Source: Clostridia bacterium (lineage in GTDB: Bacteria > Bacillota > TC1 > UBA5767). From it: DNA of 64,000 bases. Location of the stretch: positions 1,350,001 through 1,414,000 of the forward strand of contig CP069393.1 of NCBI GenBank assembly GCA_016887505.1. The letters are read 5' to 3'. The notes beneath the pieces were generated by a model. That model had not been told where the DNA came from and did no database searches. It worked only from the letters and a program-made list of their open reading frames with translations. A program made the position numbers and the translations under genes. Positions 8,001-27,136 of the stretch are shown one piece after another. The stretch's first letter is position 1; each line of letters opens with the position of its first letter.

Positions 8001-8239
8001 TCAATAATTATGACCTTGGGATACTGTGCAAATATAAATTCACGTAGTGCAAGGTATTCATCATAAGTAAGGATATCTTTAGATGATTCAAGACGCATAA
8101 AATATCCTAATCTGTTCTCCAAAAGTCTATCTAAATCTATCTTTCTTGATAAAACCTCATCAACATTAAAGCCCTTAATAACAACCATTGTTTTAGGGTC
8201 CTTATATTCATTAATTAGTTTTTCTAAACTATCTATCAT
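5045..8239 (-). CDS. RecQ-like superfamily 2 DNA helicase with large N- and C-terminal extensions
   Basis: A 1064-residue helicase. The first ~300 residues match nothing I recognise. Then come Walker A APTGAGKSA (about 309-317), SPLIGLMNDQV, the DEAH box VIDEAHIVTTWG (about 413), TFTAT, YHGRLD, KAFGMGIDI and motif VI QEIGRAARK (about 635), all in RecQ-like order. About 400 more C-terminal residues follow without a recognisable RQC or HRDC domain, so it is roughly twice the usual RecQ length. The ATG at 8239 is preferred because GGAGG lies six bases upstream; the more distal ATG at 8260 has none. It overlaps the upstream sigma-factor gene by 11 bp, so the two are translationally coupled. Its role is unknown; defence is plausible from its island context. 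Confidence 0.8.
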   Translation of the reverse strand: MIDSLEKLINEYKDPKTMVVIKGFNVDEVLSRKIDLDRLLENRLGYFMRLESSKDILTYDEYLALREFIFAQYPKVIIIDNNLYENFYPLCVNIKTKIQDELLSHYNSEIKKSGEMSKTAKAYTEIYSNFVEIGGKIYNTFNQFVDDEKERTISFYEECNIHVPEHLYSEGVLTYDLLDELDYLQFLDKVLTDEVEKIQIVKSNVGLDIDLLKKKISILSTLRPDLEMCIVKKAKETPDEFVHPDFRRILKQYWRADNFKPIQVYDMDSIADGKREIENIKQSDVISHLVEQVERCKDGESFRDIFVTAPTGAGKSAMFQIPAIYLAENYGLFTIVISPLIGLMNDQVNGLESRGYKYSRTINSDISPIKKQEIIDEIAEAKCNVLYLSPESLMGKSDLMQIIGPRKLGVLVIDEAHIVTTWGKQFRPDYWYLGDHIMKLRKSQQKREGMQFVIATFTATAIFGGLENMYQETIQSLHMIDPITYLGYVRRDDISITVNKREKIKNRSEYELDKFDLLIKNIKRSIVTERKTLIYFPTVALIERFHDYCKINDVGEYVAKYHGRLDALVKQENYIQFLNKEKPIMIATKAFGMGIDIEDIEIVMHFAPTGNVCDYMQEIGRAARKPLLKGNAVYDFMSNDFKHINRLHGLSTVKEYQLVEVIKKIYQLHNDNIRRKPTKRQTKRSNEMLVDAESFSHIFENAFSSPDDGISKVKTAMLLIQKDFERSLSYSPFYVRPIPLFEIGYFKLSSKTASVVNNKYGNIAKPINEEGSVFNVNLKQLWERQYSSNLSFPKFKYMLYSKDRALSFDYLDAFDPVLKIDIDFKKGHQHVFKAVNDALSGVINNSVREGTYIDADVLADNLHRKTGISRYRVKSIVEINISAMRIYAREYCKNFNSNPYSAREQKSGVIKYRFKNAVTMYFNWIKRGLTYIEREQTDNELYLNQGGNSKKFKEYLTILGVLESYDVLSYKALGGRNSQLYIYINQTKTMKEIINRPYFYHNQLLEIVGLRHKLSVGMLTYLFDNGLSSDEIWNILEDYFIGIIPDEVATEFEKSTGRSLRHLR

Positions 8240-9299
8240 TTCTTTCCTCCAGGTCACCATGCATAGCTTTTATTTCCTGCATTTTACGTAACTTTGAAAG
8301 TGCCGTTGATTCAATCTGTCTAATTCGTTCTCGCGTCACATTAAAATGTTTCCCTACTTCCTCTAATGTCATTCTTTCCCCAGTAGTAATACCAAATCGC
8401 ATCCTGATGATTTCAGCTTGTCTTGGCTTTAGTCGACCAACACAATCATGTAATTGTCTGCTTATAAGTTTTCGCTCAACTTCTTGTTCCACTGTAATTC
8501 CCTCTGGAACAAATAATTCAATCAATTGGGTATCATGGTCTTCACCAACACAGACATCCAATGAAGCTGGGCTTAGAAGATTGTGGCTTATAGAAATTAT
8601 TTCTTTTGCTTTTTCAATAGAATAATTTTCTTCTGATACTAGAAAATCAGTTAATTCCTTATCTGTCTCAAAACTATGGTTTTGAATGGTTTTACGAATA
8701 TGATTAACTTTCTCAAATAGATGGACAGGTATTCTTACAAGGTATCCATTATCTGGGATGGCTCTGGTAATACTCTGTGTTACCCACCAATGGGCGTAGG
8801 TAAGAAACTTACATTCTTTCTTAATATCAAATCGTTCAACAGCTTTTTTAAAACCAAAAAAGCCATACATATAGAGGTCTTCATCATCTAATCTGTGCTG
8901 ATAACTCTTCGAATACTTTTGAACTATTTTCCATATGAAGCGTTCATTTTTTTGAATTAGTATTCCTAAAACATTTTGATTACCTCTTTGATACATCAAA
9001 CAGAGTTCTTCATTATTTAGCTTATTCAAACCAGAAGAGTCAAACGCTATTGTTCTATTTGATATTTCACAAGTTTCTTCTAAATGGTCATAATTGCCTT
9101 TCGAATCATTGTTTAATTCCTGTATATTTGTAGTTTCATTATCAAAAATAAGGTCTATACCACGTTCAATTAAATAGTCAATGATAATGTACTTATCCTG
9201 CAGTGGTAAAAAATCAAACAATTTTTCGAAACTCTGCTCACTAATTTTTTTCCCCACCAGATGTGGGTTGATTAATTTATCGATAAACTCTTTATTCAT
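8229..9299 (-). CDS. Sigma-70 family RNA polymerase sigma factor (RpoD-like, accessory)
   Basis: A 356-residue sigma-70 protein. Regions 2 to 4 are present: region 2 around RFIWKIVQKYSKS to FLTYAHWWVTQSITRAI, region 3 around VRIPVHLFEKVNHIRK, and region 4 ending in the helix-turn-helix MTLEEVGKHFNVTRERIRQI. The first ~110 residues are not a normal region 1 and match nothing I know. The ATG at 9299 is chosen for the GAGGTG site six bases upstream. It is an accessory sigma factor rather than the housekeeping RpoD, because it sits in a mobile island and runs directly into a RecQ-like helicase gene (11-bp overlap). Pairing of a primary-type sigma with a helicase is unusual. Confidence 0.85.
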   Translation of the reverse strand: MNKEFIDKLINPHLVGKKISEQSFEKLFDFLPLQDKYIIIDYLIERGIDLIFDNETTNIQELNNDSKGNYDHLEETCEISNRTIAFDSSGLNKLNNEELCLMYQRGNQNVLGILIQKNERFIWKIVQKYSKSYQHRLDDEDLYMYGFFGFKKAVERFDIKKECKFLTYAHWWVTQSITRAIPDNGYLVRIPVHLFEKVNHIRKTIQNHSFETDKELTDFLVSEENYSIEKAKEIISISHNLLSPASLDVCVGEDHDTQLIELFVPEGITVEQEVERKLISRQLHDCVGRLKPRQAEIIRMRFGITTGERMTLEEVGKHFNVTRERIRQIESTALSKLRKMQEIKAMHGDLEERNDR

Positions 9300-10464
9300 T
9301 GATTTCACCTCACTACCATGGCTATAACCCTTTATCAATACTTGCCTTGCACAATTAAATTATCCTAAATTCACACTAATTCAAATAGTCATTATCTTTA
9401 AAAGCCTCTATTTATTAATAATTGCGCACCACAGCAACTATTCCTATCTACCCGTTAACTGAATTATAAAACTTAATTAGACTAAATATGGTCCATGACA
9501 AAACTGACATATTATAATTGTCCCATCACAAATCATACGCACCTAGCAACCGGGTAAGCACTATAGAATACATCATATTTTTCCATCTAAAGAATAGATA
9601 TCATTTGAGCCCAAGAAACGAGGTCACATAAACCAACTGCATCATCTAAGCCAAATAACATATCAGCACAACCACAGAAACCCACTCTGGCTAACCCTTT
9701 GGAGAAGCCAAAATATAAGGCCTTTTTCAGTAAAACAAAATATATAATAGTACTCCTGAGCTTATACAATATTGGTCGGTACTATTACCAAGATTTGCTT
9801 TGTACATCCATAGCAGTCTGGTCTACTCGGCACAAACAGAGTTCGTAACTAACTCTCGCCCTTTCAGGTCTGTCATGCTGACTATATCGATTTAGCTTTT
9901 TTCGAGCACTTATCAATTATTAGTTCAACAATCTTCCTCAAAGGGCTTGGTCTCTGTATGAAGCGAAATCAATGTTTCAACAGGCAGTAAGTGAATTTTT
10001 TTTGCTATAGTTATAATAGTTCATATAGTTATTCTTCAGGCATCAATATTAAGCCGGTTTTGCATAGTGTCAGTCATAAAAACATGTATTGGTGTAAATT
10101 CAGCACAAAAAAGCTAGACAGACATATGTCCATCTAGCTAAATTATTAGGTTCTAATAACAAAATATTCCATTTTATAGTTTCCTCAGTTTATGGTTTTT
10201 GGAAACTCCCTGTATGAATTATATACAACTAAATTATAAAACGCAATGATGGACCCTATGAGGACAAATCTTATTTTGCTTATATTTCTTCCGTAATTCA
10301 TAATTATGTACCCTGTATTGATGAAATTGTAACACTCAGTGAAAGATAAAGAACTCACAGCTTCCACACTTACGAGAATATCAGACAATAATGAGAAGAT
10401 CCTGAAATCAATAAGATAGCAGTTCAAGGGAATACTTTTATTACACAATTAAATTATAATTCAC
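9300..10464 (-). other. Gene-poor AT-rich interval between sigma/helicase pair and defence-like operon
   Basis: About 1.1 kb without a convincing gene. Short open frames exist at 9587-9769 and 10185-10448 on the minus strand but show no family signature or good ribosome site. The only clear structure is a minus-strand terminator-like hairpin at 10107-10139, described separately. The DNA probably represents decayed sequence between IS insertions. Confidence 0.4.
10107..10139 (-). terminator. Terminator-like hairpin in the gene-poor interval
   Basis: On the minus strand AGCTAGA pairs with TCTAGCT (arms 10112-10118 and 10133-10139), with further pairing inside, and is followed by six T residues. 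It implies a transcription unit, possibly now decayed, ending here from the right. Confidence 0.5.
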
Positions 10465-10806: not shown

Positions 10807-11247
10807 TCATTCCTCAATCTCTTCTATTCGCTCATCTAACATTTCAACCAGCTGAAATACCAGTCCTTCTTCATCATACTTTGAGAAATCAGGAACAAGT
10901 TTTTCAATAATTCCAAATCCTGTATTAGCATATTCCTCCGCTATTCCATACACTAAATCAGTGTTCCTAATTTTATCTTCTTCTTCTGTCTTTCTTAATT
11001 CATCAATTGCTACAGAGTAAATATAAGCCATTACAGAGTCTTTCCCTTTTGCCGATGATTCAAGAACAAGTCCTTCCTTGGATTTTGATTTTGTTCTAGT
11101 TCCTTCATTCACTCCTAATGCGAATGCAAGCATAAAAATATCTGTTCTTTCACCATTTGACTTCAAGCAAAGCATGTCAACTTTATCAATTTTTTCTTTA
11201 ATTAATCCCTCAACATACTGTCGGTCTGCGGATAATCTATCTGCCAT
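10807..11247 (-). CDS. Small protein of the DndD-like operon (DndE-sized, function unknown)
   Basis: A 146-residue acidic protein, last in the six-gene operon and only 3 bp after the DndD-like ATPase gene, with a GGAGG ribosome site overlapping that junction. It has a short N-terminal basic helix (RLSADRQYVEGLIKEKIDK), a central RTDIFMLAFALGVNEG segment, and a strongly acidic helical C-terminus ending EERIEEIEE-like. The RTDIFMLAFALG stretch and the position after a DndD-like gene recall DndE, but similarity is too weak to call. No enzyme motif is visible. It may be an adaptor for the ATPase. Confidence 0.6.
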   Translation of the reverse strand: MADRLSADRQYVEGLIKEKIDKVDMLCLKSNGERTDIFMLAFALGVNEGTRTKSKSKEGLVLESSAKGKDSVMAYIYSVAIDELRKTEEEDKIRNTDLVYGIAEEYANTGFGIIEKLVPDFSKYDEEGLVFQLVEMLDERIEEIEE

Positions 11248-11250
11248 TGC

Positions 11251-13230
11251 TTAAGCCTCCCTTATAGTTGCTATTTCATCTGTAGTAAGCTTATTGTAAC
11301 TTGAAATAACCTCTTGATTTAATACATTACTAATTTCATCTGAATATTCTGATGGAGTAACCGCCAAAATTATTTGCTTCGATTGGCTTACATTTAAAAG
11401 CACTTTTGCAAAATTTTCTCTGTTAATATCTGAAACTCTTCCAACCGGCGTATCAATAAATAATAAATTATCGTATCCTGAAACTTCATGAAGTCCAATC
11501 GTAAATGCAAGTGCAAGCAATTCCTTTTCTGCTGCTGAGCAACTATGTAGGCAGGATAAATTTGTTCTTTTATGGAACAATTTCAGTCTAAAATTATCGT
11601 CTAGTTCAATCCTTCCGTATGTTTCTTTCTTCCATAATAATTCCTCGAAAATTTCCATCGTTCGTTTTTGCATTTTTGACTTTACATCAGTAACAATACT
11701 ATTCTTAATGCTTATAATGATTTCCCTAGCATCTGACACAAAATCATAGTGTCTTTTAATATCATCGCAAGTGGAATTATCCTTTATTGCTTGGTCATAT
11801 TCTTTCTTTTTATCTGTTTTTTCTTTTTCTAAATTTTCTAATTGGGTTTTATACGAACCTTTTTTTTGAGAATTTAATTTAACCAAGTCCTCATTATTTC
11901 GTTTTTGCATCATTGCTATTTCGATCTCTTTTATTTCACTGACTGTTGAAATTTGATTATATAATTTATCATTTTCAGCATTTAGATCATCAATTTTGTC
12001 TTGATATTCTTTCAATAATCCAAATATTCTTTCTTTATCATTCTGATATTCAGATACTTCAAGTCCTCTATGAATGTCATTTTTTATTTCTGTAAGCTTC
12101 TGTATCGATACATTCGACATAAACTTTTGAACTAAAGTTTGAAAATATTCTTCTGCTGATTTATTCAAATCACTACCGCAAATTTTACATTTGTGTTCTT
12201 CTAAACTATTCTTTATGACATCAATATTAATATCTGGAACTAACGAACCATCCCCCACTTTTTGCATGATATATTGTTCTGTATTTTTATTTTTCTTATA
12301 CAATAATATCTTCACTAAATATTTTCGAACAAATATTGATAATTCTTGTTTTACCTGCATAAGTTTCGCTTCATATCTTACAATTTCTTCCTTATTCTTA
12401 TTATATCTATTATTATACTCTACAATTCTCTCAGTCCCGTTAATTATTGAATCCATCTGCTCAATCGCTTTTTCTGAATTCGCGATCTGCTCCTCGATTT
12501 GCGCTATTTCTCGCTTTTTATTGTCAATATTATTCTGTACTACATTTAATGCTGTTGCCTTTGCTTCGAGATTTGGTGATAATCTAGATAATTTTTTCTG
12601 ATATTGCTTAGCAAAACTTCCCAGATGTTCTTCGACTTTTCCAATCACATTTACCTGAGCAATTTCATAAATACTATCTCGTATATGAGACACGTTACTA
12701 ATATCTGGATCAAAATAATTAAGCAATTGCTCACCATCAAAATAAAAGTACTCTCTTATTTTCTTCGGCAAATATCGATTTATAATTTCATCTGCTTGTG
12801 CTTCCTCATACCTATAAGTATCTCCACTCGCTCTAGTTTCTAAAACATTGAATATGTCCTTTCCTGCTTGGAGATAGGTGTTTACACTAATTGAAGCTTT
12901 ACGTTCAAATACATACTTTTGGTTTCCTTCAGTCATACAAATTTTAACCACAACATATCCATATTGTTCATCATTTATTTTCGCTTCTTCGATAGCATCT
13001 ATATTACATAATGATAACTTATCCTTTTGATTACTGATCAATTTTACTGCTCCAGAGGCATGTGGTTCATCCCCGTACAGGCACCAGTTGATCGCATTTA
13101 AAAGATTTGTTTTCCCAACTCCGTTTGAAGCTACAATAATATGCATATCATTCTCTGATGTCTTGTCAAAACAAAACTTAACATTCTTATATTGTCTATA
13201 GTTATTTATTTCAATTGATGAAAAGCGCAT
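11251..13230 (-). CDS. DndD-like SMC/Rad50-type zinc-hook ATPase
   Basis: A 659-residue protein built like DndD/SbcC. It has an N-terminal Walker A, ASNGVGKTNLLNAINWCLYG (about 34-53), a long coiled coil, a central zinc hook CKICGS (about 347) flanked by coil, then an ABC signature region SAAEKELLALAFTIGL and a Walker B of the DndD form LLFIDTPVGRVSD, where TP replaces the usual DE. DndD-type ATPases couple ATP hydrolysis to DNA nicking or conformational change in phosphorothioation and related defence systems. Its start overlaps the stop of the microprotein gene by one base (TAATG), showing coupling. No dndB or dndC gene accompanies it, so it is not a standard Dnd system. Confidence 0.8.
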   Translation of the reverse strand: MRFSSIEINNYRQYKNVKFCFDKTSENDMHIIVASNGVGKTNLLNAINWCLYGDEPHASGAVKLISNQKDKLSLCNIDAIEEAKINDEQYGYVVVKICMTEGNQKYVFERKASISVNTYLQAGKDIFNVLETRASGDTYRYEEAQADEIINRYLPKKIREYFYFDGEQLLNYFDPDISNVSHIRDSIYEIAQVNVIGKVEEHLGSFAKQYQKKLSRLSPNLEAKATALNVVQNNIDNKKREIAQIEEQIANSEKAIEQMDSIINGTERIVEYNNRYNKNKEEIVRYEAKLMQVKQELSIFVRKYLVKILLYKKNKNTEQYIMQKVGDGSLVPDINIDVIKNSLEEHKCKICGSDLNKSAEEYFQTLVQKFMSNVSIQKLTEIKNDIHRGLEVSEYQNDKERIFGLLKEYQDKIDDLNAENDKLYNQISTVSEIKEIEIAMMQKRNNEDLVKLNSQKKGSYKTQLENLEKEKTDKKKEYDQAIKDNSTCDDIKRHYDFVSDAREIIISIKNSIVTDVKSKMQKRTMEIFEELLWKKETYGRIELDDNFRLKLFHKRTNLSCLHSCSAAEKELLALAFTIGLHEVSGYDNLLFIDTPVGRVSDINRENFAKVLLNVSQSKQIILAVTPSEYSDEISNVLNQEVISSYNKLTTDEIATIREA

Positions 13231-13400
13231 TACTCATTTCCCCTTTCATTCAATGCTAAGTCGATCAATTCTTTATATTTTTTACTATACTGGCAACTTT
13301 CATTTTCATGATTTACAATATCAAAAAGAAAATCCCTCATTGCCTTATCATTCTTTGTTTTTTCCTCCAATAGTGCTTTAATAGTCAAGTTCTTTATCAT
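13230..13400 (-). CDS. 56-residue microprotein of the defence-like operon
   Basis: A 56-codon gene locked into the operon at both ends: its ATG (13398-13400) overlaps the helicase stop as ATGA, and its TAA shares one base with the ATPase start. The product starts MIKNLTIKALLEEKTKND and is charged and helical, with a single cysteine in ENESCQYSKKY. No family is recognised. Because the two overlaps preserve the coding frame chain, it is very likely real. It may be a small subunit linking helicase and ATPase. Confidence 0.7.
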   Translation of the reverse strand: MIKNLTIKALLEEKTKNDKAMRDFLFDIVNHENESCQYSKKYKELIDLALNERGNE

Positions 13401-15532
13401 TCCGTAACCTCCCTTAAAATAGAATATACTTCATTTAAAACAGATGAATTATTGATAGCATTTTTCGATAACTCCAATACACGGTCCATCTCTTTTTTGA
13501 AAATACGCTTTTCTAATTCAATTATCTGGTCATTATGAAAATCAGAAATATCTGGTTTAATAATCATATCGTATATATTCGCAATATTTTTCCCTGGTGC
13601 CTGTCTGATTATTCTACCTATCCTTTGTATATACTCCCTTGGATTTGTACTACTTGCCATTACTATAGCTCGGTCTGCTGAAGGAATATCTATTCCTTCA
13701 TCCAAACATTTTATTGCAACAAGAACCTGATACTTTTTCTCTTTAAAACATTTAATAATGTATTGTCGCTCTGATAACCCTCCGTATTTATCTGATGATA
13801 TTGTAGATTGTGCCTGAGTAAATCTAGACGCAGAAATACCATTTTCCCCCAATATTTTCATTACTTTGTCCATCTGATCGGCCGAAACAAAGATAATTGT
13901 ATCTGATATTTCTGCCCCAATCTCCGACAAAATAGATTCTAATTCTCTGTATTTTTCATGTGCATTCTTTTCGATATCTGCACGTTTAAAACGCATCATC
14001 TGAAGGTAATTGTAAGTTTCTTCACTTTTAAATCTGCTAATACGAATTATTTTATCTGTAATTATTTTATATTCTTCTAGCTCATCCTCTGTCATTGATA
14101 TGAATCGAGGTTCATACTTAAAATTAACTAGAAAAGGCTTTCCGGTTAAAGGATTATGATTTTTCAAAGCATCTTCAAGTGAAAATTCATATGATTTACC
14201 ACCAAAATACTTTTCAATTAAATAACTACCCTCATCATCAAACCAACGCTGGGGTGTCGCGCTCAATCCTAGTCTATATGAATATCTTTCTAGCAAACCA
14301 TTTTTTGTTTTTGCCGCACCCAAGCCATGAACTTCATCGCCTATCAGAAATTTTGTTATTCTGTCACTAGTATCATTTATTAAATTGATATAATTTTCAG
14401 AACTACAAATTTGATGAGTCGAATAAACAACCAAGTTTCTATATAAACCAGTGCTTAATTTCAAAATTTCTCGTTTTAATAGTGATGGCCAATTAGTTAC
14501 ATTCCCATTTATCTCTATTGAATGGTCAACTTGTATATCCAAACTTTCAATATCTGTTTTCCATTGGGATGCCAATGTTATTTGCGGACATGCTATAACT
14601 ACAAGTAGCTTTGAAGTATCTTCCATTGCATTCTTAATACAACCGATTGCAGTTCTTGTTTTGCCACAGCCCGTTGCCATTTGCAAAAGTAAATTTCTTT
14701 CATTATCTTCCCACATTTCAACTGCTTCCTTTTGATAAAAGAATAGCTTTAGTGAAGGTTTTGGTGATTGCATTTCGATAATAATATTGTTTGGATAATA
14801 ATTCTTTATTGCCAGCATGGAAGGCTCAAAATATTGACTTTCAGTTATTAGTTTTTCTGCAAGAGCTTGTGGAATATCTTTTACCTCAACATCTGGCCTT
14901 ACAGCTCTCCAAAAACTGTCAAATTTCTTAATATCATCCTCTATATAAGGTATTGCGCCCGACCAACTACAAAACACTTTGAATTCTTCTGTATTGCCAA
15001 GCCACCCCGATGCTGATTCATTATTGGAGCCACTAAAGGATAAAATATTTCCACTTTGGTCATGGAAAATTCCAACTTTCTGATGCATAATTCCTAATTC
15101 ATTTATCTGGTCAGCACTACACATCTTGCCATTTTTTTTTATTACCGCAATTTTTATTTCAAGCTTATCTTTCGCAAGCATCCAGCCTAGTGCCATAATA
15201 TGGTCCTTTTGAAATTGGGATTCAATCTGCGAATAATCACTAATAAATTTTTCTGTAAGCAACTCATCTAGATTTTTAACAGAATTTTCTAGCATCATAA
15301 TATCATCGCAACTTAATTGCGGACATGTCACTAATCTCATCTTGCCACCGTTAGAGATAAAATTCTCCAACCCTCGTGCAGCCAGTGCTAAACTACTTGA
15401 TGAAAAAAATCCAGCAATTCTATCATAATGATTGGATAACGATAATACCGGGATATAAAATTCCCATAAAACATCATCCATTCCTGAATCATATGAAATT
15501 TTTAGTGGTATATTGGATAAGTTTTTAGTCAT
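13397..15532 (-). CDS. PLD-nuclease/superfamily 2 helicase fusion
   Basis: A 711-residue fusion. Residues 1 to about 230 form a phospholipase-D-like domain: RIAGFFSSSSLALAARG, then MHQKVGIFHDQSGNILSFSG with the catalytic HxK (His about 150) and a following SGSNNESASGW. The rest is an SF2 helicase: QKEAVEMW, Walker A MATGCGKT (about 286), DEVHGLG (about 397), LSATPQRW, GIDIPSADRAI and motif VI QRIGRIIRQ (about 636). Such proteins are common in defence islands, where they act as nuclease/translocases on DNA. It begins four bases after the 230-aa gene and its stop overlaps the microprotein start. Only one HxK is seen, so a dimeric nuclease is likely. Confidence 0.82.
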   Translation of the reverse strand: MTKNLSNIPLKISYDSGMDDVLWEFYIPVLSLSNHYDRIAGFFSSSSLALAARGLENFISNGGKMRLVTCPQLSCDDIMMLENSVKNLDELLTEKFISDYSQIESQFQKDHIMALGWMLAKDKLEIKIAVIKKNGKMCSADQINELGIMHQKVGIFHDQSGNILSFSGSNNESASGWLGNTEEFKVFCSWSGAIPYIEDDIKKFDSFWRAVRPDVEVKDIPQALAEKLITESQYFEPSMLAIKNYYPNNIIIEMQSPKPSLKLFFYQKEAVEMWEDNERNLLLQMATGCGKTRTAIGCIKNAMEDTSKLLVVIACPQITLASQWKTDIESLDIQVDHSIEINGNVTNWPSLLKREILKLSTGLYRNLVVYSTHQICSSENYINLINDTSDRITKFLIGDEVHGLGAAKTKNGLLERYSYRLGLSATPQRWFDDEGSYLIEKYFGGKSYEFSLEDALKNHNPLTGKPFLVNFKYEPRFISMTEDELEEYKIITDKIIRISRFKSEETYNYLQMMRFKRADIEKNAHEKYRELESILSEIGAEISDTIIFVSADQMDKVMKILGENGISASRFTQAQSTISSDKYGGLSERQYIIKCFKEKKYQVLVAIKCLDEGIDIPSADRAIVMASSTNPREYIQRIGRIIRQAPGKNIANIYDMIIKPDISDFHNDQIIELEKRIFKKEMDRVLELSKNAINNSSVLNEVYSILREVTE

Positions 15533-15536
15533 TTTC

Positions 15537-16229
15537 TCACTTCCATTTCAAATGGGTTTCAATGATTTCTTCACTATCAATAGATTTACAAACATATTCT
15601 AGCATGGTTCTAACATTTGGTCTTCGACGTATTGCTGTACTTTCTGATAAGTAATTACGAAGTATTCCCATCATATTAACTTCATGATATCTTGCATCAA
15701 TAACACTTTTCTGGATTATTGGTATTAGCAGAAATAATTTTGTTCTTATTTCTTTTCTTACATCATCATCAAATTCAATATATTCTTTTCCAATATAGCT
15801 AACAGAAAATGGTTGATGCTTTGTTGTCAGATGCATTAACGATGCAGTTTTATAATGATTTTCTCCATATTTTGTCTGTGCACCTTTACTACCTGTTTTA
15901 TTAAAAAAATATCCAATCAATTGATAATTGCAACCTGGATTAGACTCTACTATCCTAATAACATCGTCTATTGAATTTATGCTACTATATTGCGGAATAT
16001 TTTTAGCCGATATATCTTGTATACTCGTTGCATCTGCTTCAATAATATCAATTATTTTCCTTACCGATGTTTTATTAATGGTCTTAAGTATATGTGCAGC
16101 TACTCTCTGCAATTCACCTTCAGCATATTTTCCCTGAGGTATCACATCAACTGGGTGTAAATAGAATAATCTTAAGATTTCATGGTCATAAATACTACCA
16201 TTGAGTATTTTTTCTATATAACTTTCCAA
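15537..16229 (-). CDS. Unknown 230-residue protein of the defence-like operon
   Basis: I do not recognise this family. The product is 230 residues, mixed alpha/beta by eye, with no signal peptide or membrane segment. Noticeable segments are FYLHPVDVIPQGKYAEGELQ near the N-terminus, KTGSKGAQTKYGENHYKTAS (about 112-131), rich in basic and polar residues, and RNYLSESTAIRRRPNVRTML near the C-terminus. A TTG start (16227-16229) with AAGGGA nine bases upstream is used; the gene begins two bases after the radical SAM stop and ends four bases before the helicase start. The basic segments would suit nucleic acid binding, but that is inference. Confidence 0.72.
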   Translation of the reverse strand: MESYIEKILNGSIYDHEILRLFYLHPVDVIPQGKYAEGELQRVAAHILKTINKTSVRKIIDIIEADATSIQDISAKNIPQYSSINSIDDVIRIVESNPGCNYQLIGYFFNKTGSKGAQTKYGENHYKTASLMHLTTKHQPFSVSYIGKEYIEFDDDVRKEIRTKLFLLIPIIQKSVIDARYHEVNMMGILRNYLSESTAIRRRPNVRTMLEYVCKSIDSEEIIETHLKWK

Positions 16230-16231
16230 AC

Positions 16232-17428
16232 CTAATCATCCCTTCTCTTTTTCACCCGTCTTTGCTTCATATCAATTACATATTTCTGTTGGTCAAATCT
16301 TAAATCAAAATATTTTGCTGCAATATCTGGAAATTTTTTTTCGAACTCTATCATTGCTTTCATTGCAGAACACAATGTCCCCACTGTTTTATGATATTCT
16401 TGATTTGCTTGACAGTATTGCCTAAATGATTTTTTCTTCAAAAACTGAGGCTGATTACACCATCTAGCAATCTGGATAAACATTCCCTTATATGGACTGT
16501 TCAAATAATATTCATGCCGCATAATATAAGGTAAACAACCATATTTGATAATAATTGAAATCCTTTCAAATATGCTTGCAATTTCCACTTCATCTTGTGA
16601 AGCAAATCCAGAAAGCACATATAATTTTGTACTTTTGCAATTATAGCTTCTCCATAATTTAAGTTTTTCTTCTATTAAATCCCTATCCTCAATATGGTCA
16701 AATGCAAATATTATATCCCCCTTATATTTTACGTTGTTAAGTATTTCTGCTTTTTTAGAAGTAAGTAACCGAATATCAAGGCCTTGCCTAAATTGAAATG
16801 GTTTCCCTATTGCAATAAGTTCATCAAATACTTCTTTCCACTTTCCATATGCAAAAATATTATCATCCCACAAATAAATCCCTTTTCTGCTCGTATCAAG
16901 CCATTCAGATATATGGGAATGAAATTGAGCTTTATCATATTTTCGGTTTACACAAAACTCACATTTTCTGAAACACCCTCTTGTCGCAAAACCTATTGAA
17001 TAATCTGTATAATCTTTCCAATACACTGTTTTGTTTTTATGCAATGCATTATGTTCTATATACTCGTCATAAATGTGATAGTCTGGCATATGATGTTCAA
17101 TTTCGCAAGGTAAATCCATTCCACCATCAAAATAAAACCCTGTGCCTCCGTGAAACACATTATCAAATTCTAATATTTTTTCATCAATTGTTGTAAAATC
17201 AAAAACTTTCGATATATATATTGCATCGTATTCTCTAATACCTTCATAATCGTCCTTTGTAATGCATTCATAGTTTTCGATAAGTTCCACATCGCATCCT
17301 TGCTCTTTAAAAAATCCACTTAACTTCATAATAACTAGGTTTGGATGACGTGTTCCATTATCCAATAAATCTGCATCAATCAATCCTATTTTCCCTCTAA
17401 TACTGTAATCAACACGTTGTTTCATCAT
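16232..17428 (-). CDS. Radical SAM protein with B12-binding-like N-terminal domain, first gene of defence-like operon
   Basis: A 398-residue radical S-adenosylmethionine protein. The cluster motif CFRKCEFC (CX3CX2C, cysteines about 152, 156 and 159) follows ATRG, as in the family. The N-terminal part, KIGLIDADLLDNGTRHPNLV then MKLSGFFKEQGCDVELIE, is the Rossmann-like leader found in B12-binding radical SAM proteins, though no clear cobalamin-binding DxHxxG is present. The start at 17428 is preferred over 17464 because AAAGGA lies seven bases upstream. It is the promoter-proximal gene of a six-gene operon with a nuclease-helicase and a DndD-like ATPase; a base-modifying or sulfur-inserting role is inference. 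Confidence 0.75.
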   Translation of the reverse strand: MMKQRVDYSIRGKIGLIDADLLDNGTRHPNLVIMKLSGFFKEQGCDVELIENYECITKDDYEGIREYDAIYISKVFDFTTIDEKILEFDNVFHGGTGFYFDGGMDLPCEIEHHMPDYHIYDEYIEHNALHKNKTVYWKDYTDYSIGFATRGCFRKCEFCVNRKYDKAQFHSHISEWLDTSRKGIYLWDDNIFAYGKWKEVFDELIAIGKPFQFRQGLDIRLLTSKKAEILNNVKYKGDIIFAFDHIEDRDLIEEKLKLWRSYNCKSTKLYVLSGFASQDEVEIASIFERISIIIKYGCLPYIMRHEYYLNSPYKGMFIQIARWCNQPQFLKKKSFRQYCQANQEYHKTVGTLCSAMKAMIEFEKKFPDIAAKYFDLRFDQQKYVIDMKQRRVKKRRDD

Positions 17429-17521
17429 TAAACGGTCCTTTGCATTTATATTTATAAAGTGCATTATCCACTATTAACCCAGTCGCATATTCAGGAAATT
17501 CAGGTTAGTAATATTATGTTT

Positions 17522-18170: not shown

Positions 18171-21100
18171 CTATATCAGACCTGATTTCTGAAGCAATCG
18201 CTGAGCCATGGCTGCAACTTCTGCACGTGTTACGTAATCTTTTGGTGCAAGTGATTTATCATCTTTTCCAGATACAATCCCTGCTTTAAGACAATTTGCT
18301 ATGCCAGTCTCGGCATAAGCAGAAACGGTATCATCATCTTTAAAAGTACCGAGTAATGTGCTGATTTCACTTTCAGTTAAATCTATATCTAATTCTGTAA
18401 TGTCCATTGCTAAAGCCAAAATGGTTATTGCCTGTTCTCTGGTGATCCTATCATTTGGACGAAATGTTCCATCCTCATAACCAGAAATCAATCCATAGTG
18501 CTTAGCTGTTGCAATATAACCACTGTACCAAGCAGAATCAGCGACGTCACTAAATTCATTTTCCACAGCACCATCGTCAAGGCCTAGAGCCTGAACCATT
18601 ATTACAGCAAACTCCGCTCTTGTTATCGCACCGTTTGGATTGAATGTTCCATCTGTATAACCAGATATGACCTTGCGAGAAGCCATATCATTTACCGCAT
18701 TTTGTGCCCAGTGGCCTTCCACATCTTCAAACTCTATCGGATTATAGATAAGCGCATAAACGCTATTCGTCAGGCTGTTGATCACGGCATAATATATACC
18801 CTCTATGACAGTGATTTGGGTTGGTACATGGCGTACACTACCATCCGAATCTACAATGACCGCAGTTGTTATGGCCTTCGCGTCAACGTCACTCGGTATT
18901 TCAATCCTCCGTTCAACATACGATTTATAGCTTGAAACAGTACGTGTTTCTCCGTTATAGGTACAGCTAACTGTAAATTCAATCGGCTCTACCATAAGGA
19001 TCAATCCACCCTTTTTCAATGCAGCTTCCACAACTAGCTCCATATCCTCATTCGGTTCAGAAATCATTACTTCGACAGTAATGTCAGAAAGATCAATCGC
19101 CTCACCAAAACGGGCTGCCATCGCATCAATATCGATTTCTTTTGCAGGCAGAGTATAGATTGCTGAGCTTGTCTTAATCATCAAACTAGCATTCTTCTCT
19201 TCCAGGTTCTTGACCATCTTCCCAGTTATAAGACCGGACTTTATATCAGAACCACTAATAATAGGTACTTCAACCGTTAAACCATCTGCTTCAGAATTTA
19301 ATAGTGCTTTGAGTTTATCGGTATCAATACTAACTTTTGTCTTTGTTCTTCCCTCTTCATTCATACCATTTTGTTTTTTAGCAGCTGTATACCCCTTGCC
19401 ATTTACCAAAATAACGACATCGTCGTATAAATTTGATGAAGAAGATGTACTATCTGACCTAGAATTATTAATGTTCTGGGTCACTATGAATACAACCGTA
19501 TCCATATTATCCGCACTAACCATCACTGTTGCTTCGTATACACCTTTAGCAAGCCCATTATTTGCCGCTATGGTAAAGCTTGTAGATTGATTTGAAACAA
19601 GGTTTGTTTGTTTTGGTTGCGTAAAACTAAATGATTCAGCGTCAGCTCCACTCATTGAGACAGCTAAGCCAGTTAGATTTCCAGTGCCATTACACAGTAT
19701 TGTGATGATTTTGGTTTCTTGAGTTCCAGAAGAATAATTAGATTTCAAGGTAGACATCATGAGATCATTCAAGTCTTCTACTGTATAGGTTTCACTAGTA
19801 GTAAAGCTCTCTACCTCACCATATGACCTTCCAAGACTGTTTACGGCATAGGACCGCAAGTAGTAGGTAGTGCTGGGACTAAGGCCACTTGCTACTTCAC
19901 TAAAACTGCCAGTTCCTGTTCCCATGCTTACCTTGGTCACGCCTTCCGCACCCATTACGGGTACGTCATCCGTTGACGAATAAAGTACTCCTTTATCACT
20001 TACTGGTTCGCCACCAGAATCTGACACATTTCCACCTAGTGTTGCCTCTGTTGCCGTGACTTGCGATACTTCCGATGTCGTCAAGGTCGGTACAGTTTCT
20101 ACCCTAGCCCCAATAGTAAGTGTGCTGGTTTTTATTTCATTTTCTGATGCTAATTCGATTGACCCGATGGTTACACTGAACGCCGCTAGATCTGAGTCAA
20201 AATCCCTACCATCATACCCAAGCATCACCGTACATTCTGTATTGTTATCATAGGTAATAGCTTCTATTGTTACCCCATCTGGAGCATTATCTAGTGTGAA
20301 GCTTGATGGTAAAAGTTCACCATCTACAAAAGTCGTACCTGAAAGCTTTATTGTCAAGATAGCTGTACCGAGGTTCTCCTCTGTTAATGATGTCGCTGAG
20401 CTTAAAGAGGCACTTATGGAATCCGTTGTAAAAGCTACAATCGAACCATATGATGTTCCAATATTGTTTGTGGCATAGGACCGTATGTAGTAGGTTGTGC
20501 TAGGACTAAGGCCACTTACTACTTCACCAAAGCTGCCAGTTCCTGTTCCCATACTTACCTTGGTCACGCCTTCCGCACCCATTACGGGTGCGTCATCCGT
20601 TGACGAATAAAGTACTCCTTTATCACTTACTGGTTCGCCACCAGAATCCGACACATTTCCACCTAGTGTTGCCTCTGTTGCCGTGACTTGCGATACTTCC
20701 GATGTCGTCAAGGTCGGTACAGTTTCTACCCTAGCACCAATAGTAAGTGTGCTGGTTTTTATTTCATTTTCTGATGCTAATTCGATTGACCCGATGGTTA
20801 CACTGAACGCCGCTAGATCTGAGTCAAAATCCCTACCATCATACTCAAGCATCACCGTACATTCTGTATTGTTAGCATAGGTAATAGCTTCTATCGTTAC
20901 CCCATCCGGAGCATTATCTAGTGTGAAGCTCGATGGTAAAAGTTCACCATCAACAAAAGTCGTACCTGAAAGCTTTATTGTCAAGATAGCTGTACCGAGG
21001 TTCTCCTCTGTTAATGATGTTGCAGAGCTTAAAGAGGCACTTATGGAATCCGTTGTAAAAGCTACAATCGAACCATATGATGTTCCAATATTGTTTGTGG

Positions 21101-23609
21101 CATAGGACCGTATGTAGTAGGTTGTGCTAGGACTAAGGCCACTTACTACTTCACCAAAGCTGCCCGTTCCTGTTCCCATACTTACCTTGGTCACGCCTTC
21201 CGCACCCATTACGGGTGCGTCATCCGTTGACGAATAGAGCACTCCTTTATCACTTACTGGTTCGCCACCAGAATCTGACACATTTCCACCTAGTGTTGCC
21301 TCTGTAACCATCACTTGTGATACTTCCAATGTTGATACTTCCGGTGCAGTCCTAGCGGCCTTGTTTATAGCTACAGAGTAGAATACAGTTCTTGAATCAT
21401 CGTTCGCAGTTACCGTTATGTATACGTCAGTCGTACCTCCTTCTGTTAGAAGAAGTGAATTGCCAGGCATTATTTCATCAGAAAAATCTGACTCTAAATA
21501 AAGATTTATCTTCGAATACTTAGAAGCCGTGATATCTGAAACTGATATATCAAATATACTATAGTCTATATCAATATTCCATAAGACAGGGTCGTCACTG
21601 CTTCCTGCACCGCTTGTCTTAGTATCCGTCATAGATAAAACACTTACTAATTCCGCTTCACTGCGAATTGGTAAAACCATGGCCGAAACGGATACACCAT
21701 CTTCTTCCGTCGTTTTCAAAAAAGCTTCTTTGGCCGCACTGTTTTTCTCAGCTGTAATCGAAATACCGTCCATTGTAATAGATATTGTAGAACTATCTGT
21801 TATTTTTGCACCGTTATCGTCATACCAGGTAACTCCTTCATAGGAACCTGTTTTTATCGTGGAAAATAGAGTATTCGCAGTCTCATATTCACTATCTGAA
21901 GTGTATGAAAAGAGCAGAGGGGCTGCTGAAACATATGCTGCATCCGTTGTATCCATGTCGAAATCAGCATCGGCTGGATCTGCAAGTCGAGGATAAATAT
22001 TGTCTGAAAATGTCCAGTGTTCATCCGTCCATCCTTCTCCACTTGAGCCTGTTCTGAGTCCAGTTCCTATCATATTTAAAGTAGATATTCCTTCTGCCTG
22101 ATTTGAATAATCTTTATCGCCTATACCTTTATATGTGGACATCTGCTTGTCATAATAGCAATCTAACGCATAATTGGAACTATTCTGACCGAGTATTGCG
22201 CCTACATAGCGGTAGCTACACGCTATGGTACCGCTATTATAACAGTAGGACAATTCTTTAGGTGACCCGAATCCGACCAGCCCTCCTAGGTAGCGATAGC
22301 CTGATACGAAACCAGAGTTATAGCAATATAAAACTGCGCCAGAGGTAAAACTGTTGCCAATCAACCCTCCCACGTTAGAAGTTCCAGATACAGTACCTGT
22401 ATTATAGCAGTGCAACAACTCTGCACTACTGATTTGGCTGGCCATACCACCAATATAATCGGTATCCCCTGATACACTCCCGGTGTTATAACAGTAAGAC
22501 AGTTTGCCGGTATATATAAGACTACTAAAGCCACCGATATGATTAGCACCTGATACCTTGCCTGTATTATAACAATATGAAATTGTATTATTATAATTGT
22601 AGCCAACTACACCGCCTAGATGATCCGTACCTGATAGGGTACCCGTATTATGGGAGTATGACATCGAGCTATCAATACCATAACCTACTACACCGCCAAT
22701 ATAGGAATCTCCTGATATATTGCCTGTGTTATAGCAATGGGAAAGTTCCATACCCTGGTGCCTACCCGCAACGCCACCTAGATCTGAATTGCCAGATATG
22801 GTCCCGGTGTTATAACAATAGGATACCATGCTATTCGCACTGTAACCGACTACCCCCGCAACATAGTTATTTGTGCCTGTTATAATTCCCTCATTATAGC
22901 AGTATGACAATGTGCTATCCTCGATAAAAGCGGCTATGCCAGCTACAAATTTGTCACTAGCAGTGATATAGCTGTTGACTATTCCCAAATTTTCAACAGT
23001 TCCATTACTGATATGTCCAAACAATCCCTGATATCTTGTTGTCCCATCGATATATATTCCTTTAATAACATTTCCATTGCCATCAAATATACCCGAAAAA
23101 TTCTTGGAAGACTCCGCACCTATAGGCACCCATTCGTTGATTGTAAACGGTGCCAAGCCAGTAGTTCCAAATTGATCCGTGTACACTAAACCGGCAGTAC
23201 TTTTTGTGCTGTCAAATGTTTCGTTGCTGCCACTATCATCGCCAGCTATACCAGTGCCCAACCAATATGTCGTTTTTCCTTCTTTGGCAACCACGACAAG
23301 CCCAGTATCAGCGTCTAATGCAAAACTCACGCCAATGTTTAAGTCGATTTCACCAGCAAGCTTAAAATGCTGATCTTCAAAATCTTCCCCCTGGTTGACT
23401 AAATAAGCTAAATCAGCCAAATCTTGGGCACTTGAAATGATATACGGATTATCTTGGGTCCCAATACCATCCGTGAATCCTGTCGGCGCATTGTCCACCG
23501 TCGGATAACTCCATTCGCCATCGGAAGCAACTGCTGTCGATTCTAGTAGCGGGAAAAAAGATAGAACCATACATAGTGTGAGAATAACGCTTAAAGCTTT
23601 CTGTTTCAT
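18171..23609 (-). CDS. Large S-layer-homology surface protein with GLUG repeats and duplicated fibronectin-like modules
   Basis: An 1812-residue exported protein. A signal peptide (about residues 1-29, ending ESTAVASDG) is followed by a region of about ten GLUG-type repeats, each like GGVVGYNYNNTISYCYNTG (about 195-500). Then comes a cadherin-like strand domain (about 690-755) and three fibronectin-like modules beginning ATLGGNVSDSGGEPVSDKG, interleaved with two linker domains. A beta-rich region precedes three SLH domains (about 1625-1812; FEDVEGHWAQNAVNDMA and FSDVADSAWYSGYIATAKHY are two), which bind pyruvylated wall polymers. It is thus an S-layer-anchored adhesin or structural protein. 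AAAGGGTG precedes the ATG. A terminator follows. It is flanked by the defence-like island and the ECF operon. Binding target unknown. Confidence 0.88.
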   Translation of the reverse strand: MKQKALSVILTLCMVLSFFPLLESTAVASDGEWSYPTVDNAPTGFTDGIGTQDNPYIISSAQDLADLAYLVNQGEDFEDQHFKLAGEIDLNIGVSFALDADTGLVVVAKEGKTTYWLGTGIAGDDSGSNETFDSTKSTAGLVYTDQFGTTGLAPFTINEWVPIGAESSKNFSGIFDGNGNVIKGIYIDGTTRYQGLFGHISNGTVENLGIVNSYITASDKFVAGIAAFIEDSTLSYCYNEGIITGTNNYVAGVVGYSANSMVSYCYNTGTISGNSDLGGVAGRHQGMELSHCYNTGNISGDSYIGGVVGYGIDSSMSYSHNTGTLSGTDHLGGVVGYNYNNTISYCYNTGKVSGANHIGGFSSLIYTGKLSYCYNTGSVSGDTDYIGGMASQISSAELLHCYNTGTVSGTSNVGGLIGNSFTSGAVLYCYNSGFVSGYRYLGGLVGFGSPKELSYCYNSGTIACSYRYVGAILGQNSSNYALDCYYDKQMSTYKGIGDKDYSNQAEGISTLNMIGTGLRTGSSGEGWTDEHWTFSDNIYPRLADPADADFDMDTTDAAYVSAAPLLFSYTSDSEYETANTLFSTIKTGSYEGVTWYDDNGAKITDSSTISITMDGISITAEKNSAAKEAFLKTTEEDGVSVSAMVLPIRSEAELVSVLSMTDTKTSGAGSSDDPVLWNIDIDYSIFDISVSDITASKYSKINLYLESDFSDEIMPGNSLLLTEGGTTDVYITVTANDDSRTVFYSVAINKAARTAPEVSTLEVSQVMVTEATLGGNVSDSGGEPVSDKGVLYSSTDDAPVMGAEGVTKVSMGTGTGSFGEVVSGLSPSTTYYIRSYATNNIGTSYGSIVAFTTDSISASLSSATSLTEENLGTAILTIKLSGTTFVDGELLPSSFTLDNAPDGVTIEAITYANNTECTVMLEYDGRDFDSDLAAFSVTIGSIELASENEIKTSTLTIGARVETVPTLTTSEVSQVTATEATLGGNVSDSGGEPVSDKGVLYSSTDDAPVMGAEGVTKVSMGTGTGSFGEVVSGLSPSTTYYIRSYATNNIGTSYGSIVAFTTDSISASLSSATSLTEENLGTAILTIKLSGTTFVDGELLPSSFTLDNAPDGVTIEAITYDNNTECTVMLGYDGRDFDSDLAAFSVTIGSIELASENEIKTSTLTIGARVETVPTLTTSEVSQVTATEATLGGNVSDSGGEPVSDKGVLYSSTDDVPVMGAEGVTKVSMGTGTGSFSEVASGLSPSTTYYLRSYAVNSLGRSYGEVESFTTSETYTVEDLNDLMMSTLKSNYSSGTQETKIITILCNGTGNLTGLAVSMSGADAESFSFTQPKQTNLVSNQSTSFTIAANNGLAKGVYEATVMVSADNMDTVVFIVTQNINNSRSDSTSSSSNLYDDVVILVNGKGYTAAKKQNGMNEEGRTKTKVSIDTDKLKALLNSEADGLTVEVPIISGSDIKSGLITGKMVKNLEEKNASLMIKTSSAIYTLPAKEIDIDAMAARFGEAIDLSDITVEVMISEPNEDMELVVEAALKKGGLILMVEPIEFTVSCTYNGETRTVSSYKSYVERRIEIPSDVDAKAITTAVIVDSDGSVRHVPTQITVIEGIYYAVINSLTNSVYALIYNPIEFEDVEGHWAQNAVNDMASRKVISGYTDGTFNPNGAITRAEFAVIMVQALGLDDGAVENEFSDVADSAWYSGYIATAKHYGLISGYEDGTFRPNDRITREQAITILALAMDITELDIDLTESEISTLLGTFKDDDTVSAYAETGIANCLKAGIVSGKDDKSLAPKDYVTRAEVAAMAQRLLQKSGLI
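19806..21310 (-). repeat. 627-bp tandem repeat inside the SLH surface-protein gene
   Basis: Two nearly identical 627-bp units (about 21310-20684 and 20683-20057) plus a partial third (about 20056-19806) encode 209-residue blocks of one fibronectin-like module plus a linker domain. The units differ by only a few bases, so the duplication is recent or kept uniform by recombination. The 627-bp spacing is a multiple of three, so copy number can change without frameshift. Confidence 0.88.
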
Positions 23610-25776: not shown

Positions 25777-27136
25777 GATTAAGTACATATAATGGTGTAA
25801 AAACAAAATGAGCCAAAAACTCACAACTCGGTTACAATAAATGTGCTAGCAAATACTAAACCGAGGAGTGTGAATCATGGCTCAGTACAATATTACCCTA
25901 ACCGAAGAACTCTTGCACGGTCTTTTCGTCTCAGATGGAAAAGATGAAGCTTTTTCTAACCTATTGGAAGAGATATTCAACCAAGTATTGGTTGCTCAAT
26001 CTAATGACCAAATTGGTGCTGCCCCATACGAACGCACCGACGAAAGGAAGGCTTACCGTAACGGATACAGGGACCGACAGTTGACCACCAGGGTGGGAAC
26101 ACTGACGCTGCACGTCCCAAGACATCGTAACGGCGACTTCAGCACTGAACTTTTTGAGCGTTACCAACGCAGCGAGCAAGCCCTGCTTCTGGCCATGATG
26201 CAAATGGTCGTGAGCGGTGTATCCTCCAGGAAGGTGGAAGACATCACCTATGAACTCTGTGGCAGGAAGTTCTCCAAGTCTATGGTTTCTAAACTGTGCG
26301 AAAAGTTGGATCCCATCGTAAAGAATTTTCAGAACCGTCCGCTCGAAAAGCATTATCCCTTCCTGGTGGTGGATGCCCTTTACCTCAAGGTACGCGAAGA
26401 TAACCGAGTCCGTTCCAAAGGACTACTTGTAGCTGTGGCTGTTAACCAAGAAGGTTACCGTGAAATCATCGGTTTCAGGGTGGCAGACACAGAGTCCGAA
26501 ACAAGCTGGAGAGAGTTCTTCTCATCCTTGAAGGACCGAGGTCTTAAAGATGTACATCTGGTCACTTCGGACAGCCACAGAGGACTTGTGAACGCCATCA
26601 GGAAACATTTCCAGGGCGCTACCTGGCAGAGATGCCAAACACACTTTTCAAGGAACGTGCTGGACTTGACACCAAAGTCACTGCAGCCAGAACTGAAAGA
26701 ACATCTACGTAGGCTCTATGAAGCTGTTGATCTAGAAAGTGCCACCAAAGTTCGTGATGAGATTATAGACAAGTACGAAACCAAAGCATCACGTGCAATG
26801 AATCTTCTAGATGAAGCCTTTGCCGATGTCACAGCTGTTCTCAGCGTTCCCTTAAAATACAGGAAACGGCTCCGAACCAGCAACGGCATTGAGCGACTAA
26901 ACCAGGAGATTCGCCGTAGAGAGCGAGTCATACGGATCTTCCCGAATGAGGCTTCGGTTATCCGTCTCATTGGCGCCCTACTCATGGAACAGGACGAGAA
27001 ATGGCAGACTGGCCGCAAGTATTTTGAGATGGATCTTTACTACCAGACGTTTTCTGAATCTAAGAATTCTGCAAAGGCTGCTGCAGTCGCCTAATCTAAA
27101 CTACCGAGGAATTTACACACAAATGTGGACTTGACT
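25777..27136 (+). mobile_element. IS256-family insertion sequence, 1360 bp, with 8-bp target duplication
   Basis: The element is bounded by a perfect 8-bp direct repeat TAGGTGTA (25769-25776 and 27137-27144), the usual IS256-family duplication length. The imperfect terminal inverted repeats share AAGTxCAxAT and TGTAAA segments at about 25781-25800 and 27113-27132. It carries one transposase gene and lies between the ECF operon terminator and the Lgt-like gene. Confidence 0.8.
25877..27094 (+). CDS. IS256-family (Mutator) transposase
   Basis: A 405-residue intact transposase of the IS256/Mutator DDE class, catalysing cut or copy transposition of the surrounding element. The family blocks are in order: YRNGYRDRQLTTRVGTLTLH, VVSGVSSRKVEDITYELCGR, the first catalytic region FLVVDALYLKVREDN, the second VHLVTSDSHRGLVNAIRKH, and the last catalytic region TSNGIERLNQEIRRRERVI. 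GAGGAGTG precedes the ATG. GC content and codon use are higher than in neighbouring genes, showing foreign origin. It belongs to a different subgroup from the 404-residue transposases further right. Confidence 0.93.
   Translation: MAQYNITLTEELLHGLFVSDGKDEAFSNLLEEIFNQVLVAQSNDQIGAAPYERTDERKAYRNGYRDRQLTTRVGTLTLHVPRHRNGDFSTELFERYQRSEQALLLAMMQMVVSGVSSRKVEDITYELCGRKFSKSMVSKLCEKLDPIVKNFQNRPLEKHYPFLVVDALYLKVREDNRVRSKGLLVAVAVNQEGYREIIGFRVADTESETSWREFFSSLKDRGLKDVHLVTSDSHRGLVNAIRKHFQGATWQRCQTHFSRNVLDLTPKSLQPELKEHLRRLYEAVDLESATKVRDEIIDKYETKASRAMNLLDEAFADVTAVLSVPLKYRKRLRTSNGIERLNQEIRRRERVIRIFPNEASVIRLIGALLMEQDEKWQTGRKYFEMDLYYQTFSESKNSAKAAAVA

Follow-up and report, generated by a model that had tools for sequence, protein, structure and literature searches.

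A radical SAM gene at the head of a complete Pbe operon

The window, i.e. the whole stretch of 64,000 nucleotides that was analysed, holds an operon of six genes on the minus strand in the order RSAM, U230, PbeA, PbeB, PbeC, and PbeD. Its features are the following.

16232..17464, minus strand: RSAM, a radical SAM protein of 410 aa (ORF, PHROG 9298 match, predicted fold), with a predicted architecture of a Rossmann-like (B12-domain-like) N-terminal half and a radical SAM barrel (model pLDDT 92.6)
16952..16975, minus strand: CX3CX2C motif of RSAM, residues 164-171 (C164, C168, C171), position worked out by hand from the start of the ORF
15537..16229, minus strand: U230, 230 aa, TTG start, conserved KYGENHxK and STxxRR, no match above noise in Pfam, NCBIfam, PADLOC, or PHROGs
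13397..15532, minus strand: PbeA, HKD/PLD nuclease fused to an SF2 helicase (PADLOC PbeA 1.4e-213; TIGR04095 4.9e-107)
13230..13400, minus strand: PbeB, small protein of 56 aa (ORF seen in the gap between PbeA and PbeC)
11251..13230, minus strand: PbeC, DndD-like/CxC-clade ABC ATPase (PADLOC PbeC 8.1e-83; TIGR03185 5.5e-31)
10807..11247, minus strand: PbeD, DndE-like/dnd-associated protein (TIGR04062 3.4e-5; position, homologs)

U230 lies 2 nt after RSAM, PbeA 4 nt after U230, and PbeD 3 nt after PbeC, while PbeB overlaps PbeA and shares one base with PbeC. The sequence-only reading had placed a radical SAM gene with an intact CX3CX2C motif at the head of a nuclease-helicase operon, in a context of defence. 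This was borne out: what that reading called a nuclease-helicase operon turns out to be PbeABCD, a module that partners DNA phosphorothioation (PT). It is complete, lies with U230 downstream of RSAM on the same strand, and provides the defence context. The span given earlier for RSAM, from 16232, is the same frame read from an internal Met (398 aa); the full ORF extends to 17464.

The PADLOC match of PbeA spans nearly the whole model, and Pfam adds ResIII and Helicase_C domains but no PLD match. The NCBIfam matches of the operon, dnd_restrict_1 (TIGR04095), DndD (TIGR03185), and dnd_assoc_4 (TIGR04062), all fall under the curated cut-offs; for PbeD, the position fits a DndE-like protein. Small ORFs like PbeB (49-63 aa, likeness judged by eye) occur in the gap between PbeA and PbeC in 12 of the 13 loci checked. 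For a zinc hook of CxC spacing in PbeC, the candidate is CKIC at residue 348, a CxxC. Promoter and terminator scans did no better than on shuffled sequences, and no Rfam family reached gathering scores in window positions 1-30000.

The motif of RSAM reads CFRKCEFC, and its three cysteines are kept in all 81 aligned rows. C310 is a cysteine in 74 of these rows, and no N-terminal cysteine is conserved among them (C57, C67, and C120 vary). PHROG 9298 ("radical SAM domain protein") matches RSAM with 1.9e-50, and at E<=1 neither a radical SAM family of Pfam nor any PADLOC model does so. Scans of NCBIfam, Pfam, and PADLOC with RSAM and U230 gave noise only, and searches of PDB sequences with the profiles of both gave 0 matches at E<=10. 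With CX3CX2C and a predicted barrel, RSAM has the features that define the radical SAM superfamily.

Other genes in the window deserve mention. About 1.5 kb downstream of PbeD, at 5045-9338 on the minus strand, a sigma-70-like gene (MzaA-like, PADLOC 2.5e-37) overlaps a RecQ-like helicase gene (PADLOC C3a193, 2.4e-137); this pair is possibly a second defence operon. Upstream of the operon, 18171-23609 (minus strand) encodes a protein of 1812 aa with GLUG motifs and three SLH domains. Two ORFs with an identical translation of 417 aa (30577-31830 and 34980-36233) and a third of similar type (25877-27094) are presumably transposase-like.

Predicted folds of RSAM and U230

The best match of the RSAM model (pTM 0.89) in VIA is MgmA (9ccb; Z 16.6, rmsd 3.9, 284 aligned, model residues 25-353), followed by AprD4 (Z 16.1, rmsd 4.1, 310 aligned), MiaB (Z 15.1, rmsd 4.8, 290 aligned), RimO (Z 14.5, rmsd 5.5, 288 aligned), TsrM (Z 12.3), and OxsB (Z 11.8). 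Foldseek puts a model of MtaB first (9a6d, 2.3e-6), with MiaB at 1.4e-5 and MgmA at 1.7e-5. The top eight VIA rows belong to a variety of enzymes, each sharing 11-12% identity with RSAM, so that the structural comparison proposed by the sequence-only reading does not place RSAM with any one housekeeping enzyme. The likeness of the N-terminal half to B12-binding radical SAM proteins, suspected from the letters, reappears in the predicted fold (MgmA, AprD4, TsrM, and OxsB), the match to MgmA giving the model a B12-binding-like N-terminal fold. A pattern search also confirmed that the cobalamin motif DxHxxG is absent, which does not decide on cobalamin use, since some B12 radical SAM enzymes lack the motif. 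One claim did fail, namely that viperins have a different motif: they also carry CX3CX2C. Viperin is not among the rows listed for RSAM by VIA or Foldseek.

Fold and motif point to radical SAM, and the likely options for its chemistry are an MgmA-like C-methylation and a MiaB-like insertion of sulfur. In the latter case the mark that RSAM writes on DNA would be a methylthio or thio group, by another route to a PT-related mark, which would be a sub-case of the self-marking role that we favour below. The mark known to accompany Pbe is a sulfur one, the methylthiotransferases MiaB and RimO are among the best fold matches, and PP-loop genes lie near some prophage-like RSAMs. However, MiaB and RimO hold their auxiliary cluster with three conserved N-terminal cysteines, and this triad is absent from the RSAM family (C57, C67, and C120 are not conserved in the 81 aligned rows), and in the 24 Pbe-type loci described below home-made HMMs matched neither a cysteine desulfurase nor a PP-loop protein. 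We regard a sulfur mark as unlikely.

The model of U230 is of similar quality (pLDDT 94.4, pTM 0.91), and Foldseek returned nothing at E<=0.001. Its VIA rows, all under Z 8, include MexR (Z 6.8, rmsd 11.7), FokI (Z 6.5, 147 residues, rmsd 4.1), and BrxA (Z 5.6, 141 residues, rmsd 4.4), so the model weakly resembles winged-helix DNA binders from about residue 75 on, a likeness that is no more than suggestive. U230 is fused to RSAM in four loci (L053, L055, L080, and L127), to a PLD protein in L054 and L062, and to sigma-70 regions 2 and 4 in L077 (15133-17472); sigma region 4 is also found within large proteins adjoining Pbe in L163 and L166.

The self tag of Pbe and the modification genes of the host

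PbeABCD is an antiviral module that uses PT as self tag (PMC6459918). In Haloterrigena jeotgali, the combination dndCDEA-pbeABCD confers protection against virus SNJ1, the loss of dndCDEA abolishes protection (PMC6459918, Xiong et al. 2019), PT-modified SNJ1 escapes, all four pbe genes contribute, and viral replication is inhibited (PMC6459918). The escape of the PT-modified virus and the dependence on dndCDEA support a self tag in Pbe systems. The same study reports neither cleavage of viral DNA nor a growth defect without dndCDEA, which sets PbeABCD apart from a classical restriction enzyme (PMC6459918). Rakesh, Aravind and Krishnan (2024) argue that cleavage is nevertheless likely (PMC10853773); given this dispute, we make no claim of cleavage. 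Among 553 PbeAC loci, 165 have no known modification gene nearby, and the authors ask whether these are inactive or use another mark (PMC6459918).

The genome that contains the window is a single contig, 99.2% complete. It has no match to DndC at E<=1e-3 and none to DUF4007, which we take to be SspB, at E<=1e-5, and we therefore rejected the possibility that PT is made elsewhere in this genome. C5 methylases (PF00145) have no match at E<=1e-5, and the four matches to N6/N4 methylases (PF01555) all lie outside the 64-kb window. Among the 24 genomes with RSAM beside Pbe (many being MAGs of uncertain completeness), 19 have neither DndC nor DUF4007 in the sequence available. DndC passes the cut-off in two and is weakly matched in one more, which is also one of the three with DUF4007, so PT is possible in those few. 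We searched for methylases near Pbe-type loci with home-made HMMs and with PADLOC and Pfam, the latter two applied to 122 proteins, each 150 aa or longer and encoded no more than some 5 kb away, from 23 of the 24 loci; among the families listed (25 of 59 for PADLOC, 25 of 96 for Pfam) there are two MTase_II models with one member each.

What lies beside PbeA in the same phylum

We then reversed the question and searched PbeA (PADLOC PDLC02707) in 398 genomes of the phylum. Of 47 matches at E<=1e-40, we kept 22 loci, that of the window included, with E<1e-120 and most of the model covered, and left out 25 partial rows; for G164, which is among those kept, the assignment relies on search positions alone. 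Thirteen are of the Dnd/Ssp type, six have a radical SAM gene, and three have neither (L166, L168, and L175). By the profiles used, none of the 22 has both radical SAM and Dnd/Ssp genes; L170, which is of Ssp type, does encode another CX3CX2C protein about 5 kb beyond PbeC, but this one goes unrecognised by the RSAM profile. DUF4007 is present in ten loci, nine of them with a PP-loop protein, and DndC is over the cut-off in three, where it shares the contig of PbeA at a distance of 7-10 kb. The name "Ssp-type" is our reading of the domains in L164 and similar loci; in L164 (1266-8687) these are an Ssp-type PP-loop protein, DUF4007, a protein of 1214 aa, and a class-V aminotransferase, directly before PbeA. 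The three loci without either module suggest that Pbe may work without a linked mark; in one of these genomes, that of L168 (G093), a broken match resembling DndC lies on a different contig.

The six radical SAM genes beside Pbe comprise two of the family of the window and four that are more distant (L163, L171, L176, and L177). The distant ones follow PbeD directly (L163:13973-16030; L171:5134-6390; L176; L177) and are thus other types of radical SAM protein in the same slot. All six fall within the nine loci without PT genes, an arrangement with probability 0.0011 if loci were independent, which they are not, as the PbeA tree groups them. In this quick tree of 45 rows, 24 RSAM-linked rows group together in one starred clade (SH-aLRT 99) that is sister to L171, itself linked to another radical SAM; L069 (on a long branch) and L127 fall outside the main RSAM-linked clade, and the long radical SAM type (L163, L176, and L177) is in another clade with two of the loci having neither module. 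Since RSAM-linked PbeA are mostly of one clade, the counts of linkage are not independent. The PbeA of L178 is that of L065. Of the 398 genomes, five match the RSAM profile at E<=1e-40; two are of the type found in the window, and both are beside Pbe.

These data bear on the idea that RSAM produces a diffusible antiviral nucleotide in the manner of viperin, Pbe being merely a set of neighbouring defence genes. A radical SAM enzyme within a defence operon fits this idea and viperin is a precedent (PMC12926258), but RSAM occupies the slot of Dnd/Ssp and was not found with them in the 22 PbeA loci, phages carry it, and PADLOC has no model that matches it at E<=1. We give this explanation very little weight.

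RSAM is joined to several restriction modules

The distribution of RSAM was studied by scanning a 24-row alignment (A1) against genome contigs. This gave 145 relatives, of which we kept the best 80, and partners were called within the fetched flanks by tblastn, ORF maps, HMMs, and a six-frame recount. Since the query contains the protein of the window, the fractions of partners among these 80 best-matching loci are biased towards it. First, Pbe genes adjoin RSAM in 24 of the best 80, in several phyla as judged by record titles. This argues against chance adjacency, which we rejected, the gene set being conserved across phyla. Second, 16 of the 80 have a cassette of ParB-like, PD-(D/E)xK-like, and SNF2 genes, including one (L086) where only the first gene is seen, at the contig end; "ParB-like" and "PD-(D/E)xK-like" are readings of motifs (NPR and EGN[TS]RL; D..GEAK), not profile matches. 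Third, a GmrSD-like partner occurs in five, with strong matches in L073, L078, and L090, 5.6e-11 in L089, and a match by Pfam only in L107 (4.9e-6, under the Pfam cut-off). Fourth, a DrmA-type helicase lies beside RSAM in three, namely L124 (PADLOC 2.7e-171) and L112 and L120, which were assigned with an HMM built from these three loci. Fifth, two loci have a PLD-U230 fusion. In the remaining 30 we recognised no restriction module; 17 of these have a methylase or PP-loop gene, and they are often prophage-like.

The gene order of the SNF2 cassette in L074 (9977-15719) and ten similar loci bearing U230 is RSAM, ParB-like, PD-(D/E)xK-like, SNF2 helicase, ParB-like, and U230; it looks like a restriction system, although we could not match it to a known one. 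In L124 (637-10970), L112, and L120, RSAM adjoins the DrmA-type helicase and a protein of 800 aa without PADLOC match, and the HMMs used found no methylase there. We considered the c85 proteins as DrmB and rejected the assignment, as two members have no PADLOC match at 0.01. U230 is present in 41 of the 50 restriction-linked loci. Within the fetched flanks of these 50, home-made HMMs matched a methylase, PP-loop protein, DUF4007, or cysteine desulfurase only once, a C5 methylase in L060, which is an RSAM-Pbe locus.

Partners were exchanged repeatedly. On a quick tree of 123 RSAMs made without mixture model (L057 and L058 are missing and L089 is labelled "other"), no fewer than 14 changes of the Pbe label are required, eight of them forced by starred branches. 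Accordingly close pairs differ in partner: L096 (SNF2 cassette) and L099 (Pbe) have RSAMs 75.5% identical, L074 (SNF2) and L088 (Pbe) 75.7%, L084 (Pbe) and L075 (SNF2) 69.0%, and L078 (GmrSD) and L094 (Pbe) 68.7%. Such changes among RSAMs that are 69-76% identical are what one would see of an exchangeable module.

RSAM in phages and plasmids

We found 46 RSAM loci on viral contigs, and, within the fetched flanks, none has U230, PbeA, or PbeC. A C5 or N6/N4 DNA methylase matches within 3.5 kb in 27 of them (near-duplicates included). Annotated phage records have 15 matches to RSAM and plasmid records 12; in PV036431 and LC711081 the RSAM gene overlaps a DNA methylase gene. In the latter, an archaeal plasmid (L004:5995-8031), RSAM is annotated with an intein homing endonuclease and followed by three DNA methyltransferase genes. 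L009, at one end of an IMG/VR contig of 138 kb, has an RSAM that shares 82.9% identity with that of the Pbe-linked L081 and falls next to those of L081 and L082 in the tree; there is no U230 or Pbe gene in the stretch examined. This RSAM could be a case of phage camouflage or a gene carried by a prophage. The absence of U230 from the 46 viral loci led us to reject the idea that every RSAM needs U230; phage RSAMs do without it, and the role we assign to U230 below is a guess.

The viral loci also matter for the possibility that RSAM is a protein maturase, modifying U230 or PbeA/PbeC so that the restriction half becomes active only afterwards. The best fold match, MgmA, which is tied within one Z unit with AprD4, is a protein methylase by the title of its entry, and by analogy with its methylation of a glutamine of methyl-coenzyme M reductase RSAM might act on a protein, of which U230 would be an obvious candidate, since no other gene accompanies RSAM so constantly (41 of 50 restriction-linked loci) and the two are fused in four loci. 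Yet the restriction partners are unrelated between loci, and in the 46 viral loci there is neither a U230 nor a Pbe protein for RSAM to mature. We find a maturase improbable. Many radical SAM enzymes modify tRNA, and RSAM, whose fold matches MiaB, might instead modify RNA, or be a regulator or sensor of the operon, linked to it for regulatory reasons. Its linkage to several restriction halves directed at DNA, and to DNA methylases in phages, argues against this, and we give it hardly any credence.

A proposed self mark made by radical chemistry

We propose that RSAM and U230 are the modification half of an antiviral system akin to restriction-modification, in which PbeABCD would be the other half and the DNA would receive a mark; we put the probability of this at about 0.65. 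The argument starts from what the genomes display directly, i.e. the gene content, its conserved linkage, the swapping of partners, the lack of Dnd/Ssp marker genes, and the predicted folds. RSAM is most simply the enzyme of a self mark because it sits in the slot of Dnd, Ssp, or a methylase, was not found with Dnd/Ssp in the 22 loci, is common to unrelated restriction halves, and is found alone in phages. It may install a "self" mark that has not been described. A [4Fe-4S] cluster and SAM would generate a 5'-deoxyadenosyl radical, with which RSAM would install a group on the host DNA. U230, winged-helix-like, might guide RSAM to DNA or link the mark and its reader. PbeC and PbeD would scan the DNA, and PbeABCD would halt the replication of DNA that is unmarked. 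In other genomes the RSAM(-U230) module would have been plugged onto other restriction halves, and phages would carry RSAM alone to pass as self. The sequence-only reading had suggested a new chemistry in an antiviral role: the context does point to new chemistry, and the role is better read as that of the self-marking half than as directly antiviral.

The wider version of this proposal, for which we see even odds, is that of a mobile RSAM(-U230) DNA-modification module, making its self mark by radical chemistry, that has become coupled with five or more restriction halves (Pbe, ParB-like/PD-(D/E)xK-like/SNF2, GmrSD-like, DrmA-type, and PLD-U230) and taken by phages as camouflage. The self-marking role predicts that bacteria, archaea, and phages carry an undescribed mark on their DNA. 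If this is so, radical SAM chemistry joins methylation, phosphorothioation, and deazaguanine as a source of self marks, and a radical SAM module could fill the modification slot in some of the 165 PbeAC loci without known partner (PMC6459918).

Comparison with known systems

As an enzyme, RSAM has in common with B12-type radical SAM proteins (MgmA, TsrM, and OxsB), AprD4, and MiaB/RimO the two-domain fold and CX3CX2C, but it is only 10-15% identical to them in aligned rows, lies in another gene context, and has no DxHxxG and no conserved N-terminal Cys triad. PHROG 9298 of phages is the same family (1.9e-50), one viral copy being 83% identical to a defence-linked RSAM; unlike the operon of the window, the viral loci have no U230 or Pbe genes and are often near DNA methylases. 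Our searches of the open-access literature turned up no report of a radical SAM partner for Pbe, DISARM, GmrSD, or the other restriction halves, although such papers could exist elsewhere. The term appears twice in PMC10853773, both times for DndC, and does not occur in PMC12458937.

Three systems share the restriction core. The CxC ABC ATPase-DndE systems (PMC10853773) have the same core of ATPase, DndE, and HKD-helicase and are associated with cytosine methylases, whereas the operon of the window has no methylase; their authors suggest that this core can recruit other modifications. The Ssp-type phosphorothioation genes of L164 and others are a modification half beside the same antiviral half as in the window, with PP-loop, DUF4007, and cysteine desulfurase-like genes where the window has radical SAM and U230. 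Finally, DndCDEA-PbeABCD (PMC6459918) has the same antiviral half, in the same order PbeA-B-C-D, and the system of the window has RSAM and U230 in place of dndCDEA.
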